A stretch of 41,614 nucleotides of DNA, taken from an uncultured Gemmiger sp. GTDB taxonomy: Bacteria > Bacillota > Clostridia > Oscillospirales > Ruminococcaceae. Location of the stretch: contig CALXHT010000018.1 in assembly GCA_944388215.1 (NCBI GenBank), positions 1-41,614 of the forward strand. The letters are read 5' to 3'. The first letter of the stretch is position 1. Each line of letters starts with the position of its first letter. Both the position numbers and the translations under genes were made by a program. Below, piece by piece: positions 11,096-25,878 of the stretch. The notes below the pieces were generated by a model that ran no database searches, had not been told where the DNA came from, and saw only the letters and a list, made by a program, of their open reading frames with translations.

Positions 11096-11125
11096 TTGAC
11101 ACAAAAGTCGGGGAAATGATATACT
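11096..11125 (+). promoter_or_regulatory. Strong promoter of the leader ORF and MFS gene
   Basis: A consensus TTGACA (11096-11101) and TATACT (11120-11125) are separated by 18 bases, about 35 bases upstream of the leader ORF start. This is among the best promoters in the window. Confidence 0.85.
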
Positions 11126-11157
11126 GACACAGTTCAAAAAGAAAGGAGGGCGCACAA

Positions 11158-11256
11158 ATGGCTTGGAGATTTTCTAAGATCCAACTGAAAAAAGGCAATG
11201 TTTTGGCCTTTCAGGGGGATAGTGCGCCCTTTTGGAAGGTCAAGATGGCACGTTGA
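11158..11256 (+). CDS. 32-residue leader peptide of the MFS attenuator
   Basis: ATG 11158 is preceded by AAAGGAGGG at ideal spacing and opens a 32-codon frame (starts MAWRFSKIQLKKGN, ends PFWKVKMAR) closed by TGA at 11254-11256. It lies between a strong promoter and a terminator that directly precedes the MFS start, the layout of ribosome-sensing leaders such as that of tet(M) in Tn916. Codons 19-23 (11213-11225) form the left arm of the antiterminator, so ribosome position would decide the RNA fold. An earlier hairpin, 11185-11196 with 11206-11214, overlaps that arm and could compete with it. The peptide probably acts through its translation rather than as a finished product; that is inference. 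Confidence 0.75.
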   Translation: MAWRFSKIQLKKGNVLAFQGDSAPFWKVKMAR

Positions 11257-11330
11257 TGTGCTTTTGGACGTGAAAAGCTGTGCACTATCTCCTTTTACTT
11301 GCAGACACCTGTGAGAAAAGGAGATTTTTT
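11213..11330 (+). promoter_or_regulatory. Transcription attenuator (antiterminator/terminator) of the MFS gene
   Basis: The terminator has stem ATCTCCTTTT (11287-11296) with AAAAGGAGAT (11316-11325), continued inward by CTTGCAG (11298-11304) with CTGTGAG (11309-11315), and then T-run 11325-11330 right before the MFS ATG. Its right arm contains the MFS ribosome site AAGGAG. The competing antiterminator pairs AGGGGGATAGTGC (11213-11225, inside the leader ORF) with GCACTATCTCCTT (11282-11294), 13 continuous pairs with two G-U, consuming eight bases of the terminator's left arm. The two folds exclude each other. Confidence 0.85.
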
Positions 11331-12419
11331 ATGTTTACTATTAAACGGCAGATTTGCCTCATCTACTCCATAACGGCACTGGGAAGCCTCCAGTTTGCAG
11401 GAGCCTGCTGGGCAGCGCTACTGGCAGCGAGGGGCTTTTCCCTGACCCAGATCGGATTGGCAGAGGCGGTCTTTCACCTCACCAGCCTTTTATTTGAAGT
11501 TCCATCCGGCGTGATTGCCGACGTATTTGGACGTAAACGCTGTATGATCGCCAGCCAATGTATGTCCGCAATGGCCTCCGTTGCCATGATGCTTTCTGGC
11601 TTTATAGGGGGTGTCTGTATAGCGATGGCACTCAGTGCGTTGGGTTACAATTTTGCTTCCGGAGCCCGAGAAACACTTGCCTATGAGAGCCTGAAACAAT
11701 GCGGTCAGCAGAGCGTCTATGAGCGTTTTGCCGTCAATGACACAACTATATGGAGAATCGGGACGGCATTATCCACGCTGTGCACTGGAGCCGCACTGTT
11801 GATCGGCCCGCGTGCCGCCTATGGCGTGGATTTGACCCTGGCATTGTTGGGGTTGTGGCCAGCCATGCAGCTACAGGAATCTCAAAGCAGCGAGGGCGCT
11901 GACAGCGATAGAATGCAGCGCATCTGTGCTGCTGTAAAGGAAAGCGTTGATTTTATTGTCCATAGCCCAAAGGTCCTGCAGCTGATGTTAGGCAACGCTT
12001 TGGTAGGATCTGTGGCGACTATGCTGCTCTATCTGCTCCAGGCGCGGCTGCCGGTTATGGGGGTTCCTGACGGCTGGTTGGGCCCGGTGTTGTTTCTGCT
12101 GGGACTGAGCGGCACACTGGGGCTGCAAATTGCCCGCCTTACAGGTCGGCTGCGGTACCGTTTGGTTGTGGTGCTGTGTGGTACCGGCGTTCTCACAGGA
12201 ACGCTTTTGGCCGCTACATCTTGGCTCCCTGCGGTGCTGGCTGGTGGATTTCTAGCAGGGACACTGGGTGATCTGATGGACGTGTGCAGCGATGTTATAC
12301 TGAACGAAATGGTCCCCTCCTCTCGAAGGGCAACGCTGGTTTCTGTTTCGTCCCTTGTTTTTTCTTTTGCAATGCTGGCTGTCGCTCTGCTGTTGGGAGC
12401 ACTTTTCAGCATGGCTTGA
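11331..12419 (+). CDS. MFS transporter, probable drug exporter under attenuation control
   Basis: A 362-residue polytopic membrane protein of the major facilitator superfamily with about ten to twelve hydrophobic segments. Motif A between helices 2 and 3 is visible (GVIADVFGRKR) after LLFEVPSG, and a SGARETLAYESL segment follows helix 4. It is slightly shorter than the usual 380-420. The ATG at 11331 was chosen because AAGGAG lies 7 bases upstream, inside the terminator stem; the frame open from 11280 has no start signal. Base composition is more A+T-rich than the flanking metabolic genes, and it sits in an island with an integrase relic, which suggests acquisition. Control by a leader ORF plus terminator suggests induction by a ribosome-stalling antibiotic such as a macrolide, lincosamide, phenicol or tetracycline. 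The substrate is not determinable from sequence. Confidence 0.85.
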   Translation: MFTIKRQICLIYSITALGSLQFAGACWAALLAARGFSLTQIGLAEAVFHLTSLLFEVPSGVIADVFGRKRCMIASQCMSAMASVAMMLSGFIGGVCIAMALSALGYNFASGARETLAYESLKQCGQQSVYERFAVNDTTIWRIGTALSTLCTGAALLIGPRAAYGVDLTLALLGLWPAMQLQESQSSEGADSDRMQRICAAVKESVDFIVHSPKVLQLMLGNALVGSVATMLLYLLQARLPVMGVPDGWLGPVLFLLGLSGTLGLQIARLTGRLRYRLVVVLCGTGVLTGTLLAATSWLPAVLAGGFLAGTLGDLMDVCSDVILNEMVPSSRRATLVSVSSLVFSFAMLAVALLLGALFSMA

Positions 12420-12450: not shown

Positions 12451-12514
12451 TTACATCAAAACAGCGAGATAGCCCCTCCTTAAGGGAGGCGTCTATCTCG
12501 CTGTTTTAATGTAA
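12451..12514. terminator. Bidirectional terminator between MFS and the 84-residue gene
   Basis: A long hairpin: TTACAT plus AAAACAGCGAGATAG (12451-12456, 12458-12472) pairs with CTATCTCGCTGTTTT plus ATGTAA (12493-12507, 12509-12514), with an inner CCTCC/GGAGG pair at the tip. The A-tract on one side and T-tract on the other allow termination of the two convergent genes. Confidence 0.9.
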
Positions 12515-25758: not shown

Positions 25759-25765
25759 AACGATA

Positions 25766-25878
25766 GCAGGCTGCTGACCGACGGATTTGTGGGGATTACC
25801 ACAGGGGAGGCAGCTGAAGAAAAAGCCGACCGTCTGGGCTGCATGCACTGAAGCAGGTGTATGCAGCCCTTTGTTTTT
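25766..25878 (+). promoter_or_regulatory. ZTP (pfl motif) riboswitch with terminator, upstream of formate-THF ligase
   Basis: The pfl-motif core is visible: ACCACAGGGGAGG (25798-25810) and GCCGACCGTCTGGGC (25825-25839). GACGG (25780-25784) can pair with CCGTC (25830-25834) as the long-range helix. The last aptamer bases GGGC start a terminator: GGGCTGCATGCAC (25836-25848) with GTGTATGCAGCCC (25857-25869), then TTTGTTTTT. ZTP or ZMP, which builds up when 10-formyl-THF is short, should stabilise the aptamer and prevent termination, raising fhs expression. This is the textbook gene partner of the class. Confidence 0.93.

Follow-up and report, generated by a model that had tools for sequence, protein, structure and literature searches.

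A putative ribosome-mediated transcription attenuator with a conserved leader peptide upstream of an MFS exporter gene in gut and rumen bacteria

Leader peptides that sense drugs in the tunnel of the ribosome are described for a handful of resistance genes, mostly from a few pathogens and Bacillus. Mef is an exporter of the MFS class, as is the protein considered here, and TnaC, a leader peptide with a different output, works through Rho. The report on mef(E)/mel (msr(D)) gives an 8-codon leader peptide, MTASMRLR, with the stall motif MRLR and macrolides as inducers, and describes an arrangement like that of our locus, namely a short leader ORF led by a Shine–Dalgarno (SD) sequence and a terminator that gives way to an anti-attenuator on stalling (PMC4335068). 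In the BmrB–BmrCD system of Bacillus subtilis a drug transporter is likewise under ribosome-mediated attenuation, with three alternative stem-loops (PMC4191407). With the MsrDL and Erm arrest peptides, a nascent peptide and a ligand in the exit tunnel together halt the ribosome and a terminator is lifted (PMC10314930), as we infer for the leader described below. TnaC and this leader both keep a Trp some 12 residues away from the site of the stall, a putative one in our case (PMC8429421).

The leader region and its alternative folds

The window, by which we mean the whole stretch of 41,614 nucleotides that was analysed, derives from an uncultured Gemmiger sp. and contains the following features at the locus in question.

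11096..11125, + strand: sigma-70 type promoter, TTGACA-18 nt-TATACT with extended TG, 11 of 12 consensus matches
11142..11149, + strand: SD of the leader, AAAGGAGG, overlapping the left arm of hairpin T1
11144..11155, + strand: left arm of T1 (protector or anti-antiterminator), 12 pairs with 11222-11233
11158..11256, + strand: leader ORF of 32 codons, MAWRFSKIQLKKGNVLAFQGDSAPFWKVKMAR, from the ORF read and relatives
11158..11202, + strand: codons 1-15, the conserved and putative sensor part of the peptide, from amino-acid level conservation and ORF lengths
11164-11166, + strand: W3 codon of the leader
11194-11196, + strand: G13 codon of the leader
11213..11227, + strand: left arm of the antiterminator, leader codons 19-24, from folding and both-side changes in relatives
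11222..11233, + strand: right arm of T1 with T-run (four T in the window, up to six in relatives)
11280..11294, + strand: right arm of the antiterminator, with an 8-base overlap with the left arm of the terminator
11287..11325, + strand: terminator T2, 11287-11304 with 11309-11325, 17 pairs and a one-base bulge
11316-11323, + strand: SD of the MFS gene, inside the right arm of T2
11325..11330, + strand: T-run of T2, six T, adjoining the MFS start
11331..12419, + strand: MFS exporter gene, 362 aa, ATG at 11331
12458..12507, + strand: strong hairpin followed by T (-33 kcal/mol), also listed as a palindrome

An earlier sequence-only reading of this DNA had proposed a leader-ORF attenuator controlling an MFS exporter, with a promoter, a 32-codon leader with its own SD and a terminator holding the SD of the MFS gene. 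All of these parts are present by sequence, folding and comparison, the attenuator as a whole is well supported by homologues, and the assignment of the exporter to the MFS agrees with Pfam (MFS_1, E 7e-17). Scanning for promoter-like sites found one where 2.2 are expected in shuffled sequences, so that the promoter is not significant by itself; the transcript would start near 11130. The earlier leader hairpin that was said to compete with the antiterminator corresponds to T1, the left arm of which is the leader's own SD and the right arm of which, in a stem of 12 pairs, overlaps the antiterminator left arm. The antiterminator, put at 13 pairs beginning inside the leader, does exist and does overlap the terminator, but 11213-11227 and 11280-11294 form 15 pairs when G-U pairs are counted.

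Folding of the whole leader is stronger than that of dinucleotide shuffles (z = -5.07), as is that of T2 (z = -5.61), and the two antiterminator pieces give z = -2.55 and -3.37. Folded as a whole, the leader adopts T1 and T2 in its best structure, which is the OFF state, and the antiterminator appears in the fold when the 5' part of the leader is omitted. A simple terminator scan of the window did not list T2, probably because of its one-base bulge. T1 is a poor terminator in the window because its T-run has only four T. The hairpin at 12458-12507 is likely to be the end of the transcription unit. Elsewhere in the window, at 25764-25846 on the + strand, lies a ZMP/ZTP riboswitch (RF01750, 58.4 bits).

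Linkage of the leader with the exporter gene

The MFS protein was matched at E <= 1e-20 in 20 of 150 relatives, the window included. With two faecal scaffolds from a phage collection, which are unannotated and probably bacterial, these make up 22 first homologues, and all 22 have an SD-led small ORF that aligns with the window leader within 420 bases upstream of the exporter gene. Apart from the window's own, their exporters are 24-94% identical to that of the window; the most distant (L021 and L022) have the leader Trp at codon 5, and an in-frame stop is listed in the exporters of L004 and L017. R1, a covariance model built from the leader segment, gave matches in 17 of 197 family genomes (E <= 0.01). 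All 13 of those with E <= 8.1e-7 precede the MFS gene. The other four are weak (E 0.001-0.006), do not precede it and resemble ordinary terminators or other genes (the surroundings in L042 were read in part). Ten of 391 class genomes, among them that of the window, were matched at E <= 0.001; of the other nine matches, eight are immediately upstream of the MFS gene and one (L047) is separated from it by an insertion. No other kind of gene stands behind any strong R1 match in the 197 family and 391 class genomes.

A single-sequence scan of contigs from named organisms had given no match; a later profile scan yielded 539 loci, of which the best 80 were taken. These best 80 come from Lachnospiraceae, Butyrivibrio, Pseudobutyrivibrio, Blautia, Roseburia, Ruminococcus, Saccharofermentans, Fournierella, and Treponema and other spirochaetes. 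An SD-led ORF with W3 and G13 and a length of at least 14 codons is found in 65 of the 80, or in 66 if the leader of L104, which lies beyond an insertion, is counted. The remaining 14 comprise 13 spirochaete versions and L121, in which the leader is gone and T2 and the MFS gene are kept; when homologues that retain the MFS gene without leader and stems were sought, L121 was the only one of the best 80 of 539 to have lost its leader. Outside these 80, L041 has kept the MFS gene together with a degenerate leader of 8 codons that lacks the conserved peptide. SD-led ORFs with W3 and G13 arose in 5 of 1600 trials with shuffled upstream regions and in none of 17 regions upstream of outgroup MFS genes. 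In L047 the leader is 1787 bases before the MFS gene, and the insertion between them carries a transposase-like ORF, presumably of IS91 type. L104, from Butyrivibrio hungatei NK4A153, is the same locus, its 1295 overlapping bases being identical. The insertion of ~1.5 kb (about 1700-3104 in L047, 1-1500 in L104) lies between T2 and the MFS gene and separates the exporter from its leader.

In a tree of 49 MFS proteins, all 33 rows with a W leader (L041 and L021/L022 among them) stand on one side of a branch, the support of which is 94/94 in the full tree and 100/99 without ten unlabelled rows. The tree left out L004, L010, L027, L028 and L047, and L017 is absent from it, its product, with the in-frame stop, probably falling below the 300-aa limit. 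Members of families f52 and f67 are intermingled in the tree, together with one f1 genome (L039), a pattern suggestive of horizontal transfer of the exporter with its leader attached. A single MFS gene of this kind and a single such leader are present in the source genome (2.3 Mb, 46 contigs, 89% complete). No occurrence was found among the viral contigs searched. Plasmids searched with the MFS protein gave 17 records, all below 60% identity and none with 80% coverage; with the leader peptide (of L008) they gave one match (E = 5), with the leader DNA of L046 four records of short pieces (best E 0.3), and with the window's whole leader DNA none. The stretch after the leader, used as a DNA query, matched 66 records, 36 of them Borrelia and two Campylobacter coli (best E shown 4e-5); at the one C. 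coli site inspected, the listed neighbours included no resistance gene.

The suggestion that the locus is an antibiotic-sensing resistance unit fared less well than that of its architecture. The exporter exceeded the curated cut-off of none of the named MFS resistance models in NCBIfam, the best being TetA(P) with 37.7 bits against a cut-off of 750, the Mef model was absent from its NCBIfam matches, and the leader is unlike the tet ribosomal-protection leaders that were read (MRQGILK in seven loci) and unlike the mef(E) leader.

Conservation of the leader peptide and the RNA structures

The leaders share the consensus M-x-W-K-x-x-N-[ILV]-[QH]-L-x-[KN]-G. The first set consists of 36 of 39 rows, 34 of them unique, after removal of L021 and L022 (W at codon 5) and L041 (degenerate). 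Since W at codon 3 helped to locate these leaders, some starts of which were placed by hand, its occurrence in all 34 is in part a product of the method. G13 played no role there, and all 34 have it, through GGC (13), GGT (14) and GGA (7), as all have [ILV]8 and 31 have [KN]12. The 61 unique named leaders, drawn from the best 80 of 539 loci and selected on W3 and G13 only, with the other positions free, read M-[FYTS]-W-K-[TM]-x-N-[ILV]-[QH]-L-x-[KN]-G, with N7 in 56, [ILV]8 in 61, [QH]9 in 59, L10 in 58 and [KN]12 in 61, and encode G13 by four codons. Glycine 13 is kept through synonymous codons, and the peptide is therefore selected; conservation of amino acids at a fixed distance from the start, one mark of an arrest peptide, is what these leaders display.

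All leaders of the 36-set and the 65-set have at least 15 codons, the latter set being taken from the best 80 of 539 with at least 14 required. The ORF ends at exactly codon 15 in 11 of the 36, and at 18 in 12 of the 65 (from the best 80 of 539); that of L052, MSWKFDFLHLIKGNYSLI, also has 18 codons. Past codon 15 it is the nucleotides that are kept, as AGT-GYR-CCC-TTTT in those leaders of alignment A1 whose ORF ends at codon 16, and AGTGYRCCCTTTT is retained in A1 leaders after the end of the ORF. Codons 1-15 thus look like the sensor peptide and codons 19-26 like RNA structure, the latter because nucleotides are conserved even where the ORF has already ended.

In 109 leaders, the duplex between a leader's own antiterminator arm region and its own region before the MFS gene has a mean of -19.8 kcal/mol, against -16.6 (sd 0.24) with swapped partners, where the best of 2000 permutations, made with kinship ignored, reached -17.4, and against -12.9 with base-shuffled partners. 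These leaders come from both locus sets (the named one being the best 80 of 539), and some species are probably in both; L051 and L120, for example, have the same leader peptide and arms and were both counted. L004, L010, L014, L018, L022, L041 and L047 were dropped because they are near copies or lack parts, L104 and L121 because no leader is in reach, and L117 because it is too short. On 18 leaders alone the swap control is modest (own -23.8, swapped -19.5), and swapped partners were at least as good as the leader's own in 13 of 17 cases for L046 and 12 of 17 for L051. The window architecture is found in 80 of the 109 (76 unique), the rest being 13 spirochaete leaders and 16 relatives, including L011, L012 and L016 from the same genus, that use other antiterminator arms. 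Covariation had been called for as a check, and the antiterminator shows changes on both sides. Among the 76 unique sequences one column has UA 60, AU 6, UG 5, CG 3, GC 1 and GU 1, and its neighbour AU 64, GC 9, UA 2 and UG 1, for pairings that were picked by energy, a choice that leans towards pairing.

The T2 layout of SD, T-run and start is present in 77 of these 80 leaders, the T-run being shorter in L147 and further from the start in L170 and L054. The antiterminator shares at least 4 paired bases with the left arm of T2 in 74 of the 80, and the last 59 bases before the start have z < -2 relative to base shuffles in 68. Two marks of a ribosome-mediated transcription attenuator are found here, a translatable SD-led leader ORF between promoter and gene, and a conserved antiterminator that is mutually exclusive with an intrinsic terminator. 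T1 has a mean of -19.4 in the 36 leaders of the first set (-9.8 in shuffles) and of -10.7 in the 65 leaders of the named set, from the best 80 of 539 (-7.0 in shuffles), and is weak in L039 (-4.8 kcal/mol) and L051 (-9.1 kcal/mol). We considered T1 as an essential terminator in general and rejected this, given its short T-run in the window and its weakness or absence in some relatives; spirochaetes, moreover, lack a visible SD arm. T1 most plausibly serves as a protector, keeping the antiterminator arm occupied as long as the leader is free of ribosomes, and, in relatives with six T behind it, as an early terminator as well.

The 13 spirochaete loci among the best 80 of 539 (L135, L143, L146, L150, L153, L154, L159, L164, L165, L169, L174, L178 and L179) begin with ATG-TGG-AAR, have W at codon 2 and are one codon shorter. 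At codon 12, in the place of G13, they have G in 6, C in 6 and A in 1, so that the glycine is not universal. No SD is visible before the leader in any of these 13, and the leader may be translated from a leaderless transcript. In several of the 13 the region before the MFS gene forms a hairpin that closes the SD and has no T-run, and in several the leader's GGGGTAGTGGG can pair near this hairpin, which together suggest that output in spirochaetes is translational. Another leader ORF, marked by the motif YLA-x-x-HA[IV], is shared by all six loci (L082-L086 and L089) of a neighbouring group, family f46. It lies about -340 to -100 upstream of the MFS gene (IIEYLAYAHAITGDFGAQGRS in L083), and behind it comes a G-rich stretch similar to the right arm of T1. 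The leaders of L082 and L089 are more divergent, and that of L086, missed by the SD filter, was read from the sequence directly. Upstream of the outgroup MFS genes of L087 (MLHWIGFKWNIMYEKDGNRISASFF), L092 and L099 there are small ORFs or conserved-looking stretches, which may be other leaders.

Proposed mechanism and comparison with known systems

The leader and its peptide-level conservation, the antiterminator, T2, the overlap of the two and the linkage to one MFS clade are features of the sequences themselves. On this basis we consider it quite probable that the locus works by ribosome-mediated transcription attenuation, with a leader peptide of the arrest type in control; the stalling and where it occurs, the inducer and the substrate of the pump are what we infer. 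Our working model is as follows. When the leader is untranslated, T1 would tie up the left arm of the antiterminator and T2 would form; when it is translated through without delay, the moving ribosome would cover the same arm, with the same result. RNA polymerase would then halt before the MFS gene, the SD of which would be locked in the T2 stem, and the exporter would be OFF. If the nascent W3...[KN]12-G13, together with an inducing small molecule, were to block the peptidyl-transferase centre and halt the ribosome at some point up to about codon 13, T1 would be kept open by this ribosome or by the one that follows it onto the SD. The segment 11213-11227 would stay free to pair with 11280-11294, T2 would not form, and the exporter would be transcribed and translated (ON). 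The geometry is compatible with such a switch. With the textbook figure of 15 nt upstream and 17 downstream of the first base of the P codon, the footprint of a ribosome with G13 in the P site would be about 11179-11211, with the antiterminator arm beginning at 11213, ~1 base beyond. A ribosome at or before G13 would leave the arm free and one further on would cover it, hence a stall would mean ON.

Such an architecture would by itself suffice for a general sensor of translation speed, in which any drug or starvation that slows early leader ribosomes acts without specific arrest; in B. subtilis, BmrCD responds to chloramphenicol, erythromycin and lincomycin through translation of bmrB (PMC4191407). 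We regard this as unlikely for the present leader, since amino acids and not only codons are conserved at positions 7-13, and since spirochaetes keep much of the peptide though the RNA parts differ. A sensor of free tryptophan or another aromatic metabolite resembling TnaC would have W3 in the tunnel 12 residues above a P site at residue 15, and residue 15 is indeed the last codon before the stop in 11 of 36 leaders. In TnaC the ligand pocket is lined by Trp12, a critical residue, and a second critical residue, Pro24, stands at the same offset of 12 (PMC8429421). We take this equality as a hint, not as evidence; most leaders continue past codon 15 and the downstream gene is an exporter, not a tryptophanase, which makes this alternative improbable.

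Starvation for tryptophan is less probable again. Uncharged tRNA would stall the ribosome at the TGG of codon 3, where it would sit over the SD, cover 11149-11181 and with it much of the T1 left arm, and open T1, and W3 is present in all tabulated leaders, if partly by construction. However, the run of cognate codons and the cognate biosynthesis or transport gene of trp-type attenuators are both absent (the window leader has W3 and W26 only, and no Trp gene follows), residues 7-13 would be left unexplained, and in spirochaetes, with W at codon 2, the K/G region shifts along with it, the glycine itself being kept in 6 of 13. Control of the antiterminator by an RNA-binding protein or a ligand-binding RNA, with the leader peptide incidental, would suit the strong folding but is the least probable of the four, since the codon of G13 varies but its amino acid does not, which speaks for translation, and since no Rfam riboswitch, T-box or leader family matched the region above its cut-off (below it there were only weak matches, E 2-4.2).

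Returning to the arrest-type leader, the inducer would most likely be a ribosome-binding natural product or drug that the pump exports. Sensing of an antibiotic is plausible, given an exporter behind an arrest-type leader, and we put its chances at about even. A little more tentatively, we propose an undescribed class of ligand-dependent arrest peptides in gut and rumen Clostridia and spirochaetes, with W3 or W2 followed by N-[ILV]-x-L-x-[KN]-G or something close to it, the last residue of which lies ten positions after the Trp, linked to one MFS clade in all loci seen. Such peptides might sense a ribosome-acting natural product that is common in the guts of animals and turn on the pump for its removal, at the level of transcription in Clostridia and of translation in spirochaetes. 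The term undescribed accords with a word search of open-licence PMC papers, which found no description of this leader, and with the Rfam result.

Among the known systems, in the tet(M) type, too, a leader ORF precedes a resistance gene, and the bacteria are of the same class, but the leader is MRQGILK and the downstream gene a GTPase (L056-L062). Ribosomal-protection genes exceeded their family's cut-off in 8 of 148 genomes, and of 11 regions upstream of ribosomal-protection-like genes (L055-L065) seven (L056-L062) have MRQGILK and L055 has MRHSIFK; none resembles the present leader, and kinship with tet leaders was rejected. The gene behind the window leader is an MFS exporter in place of a ribosomal-protection gene, and the leader is not of MRQGILK type. 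The peptide is also unrelated to that of mef(E)/msr(D) and lacks the MRLR/MRLK stall motif (PMC4335068). BmrB–BmrCD has an ABC transporter, a 53-codon leader and a terminator inside the leader gene (PMC4191407). The MsrDL and Erm peptides are not the same as that of the window (PMC10314930), and TnaC has its own stall at the end of the ORF and controls tryptophanase (PMC8429421). Set beside these, the present locus offers a different conserved peptide, tied to one exporter clade in many cultured and uncultured bacteria of the gut and rumen, Blautia, Butyrivibrio and Treponema among them. If the leader stalls ribosomes on demand, it would provide a ready biosensor for the compound of the pump, a new case for recognition of tunnel ligands, and a direct route to the function of an exporter to which no family model gives a name.
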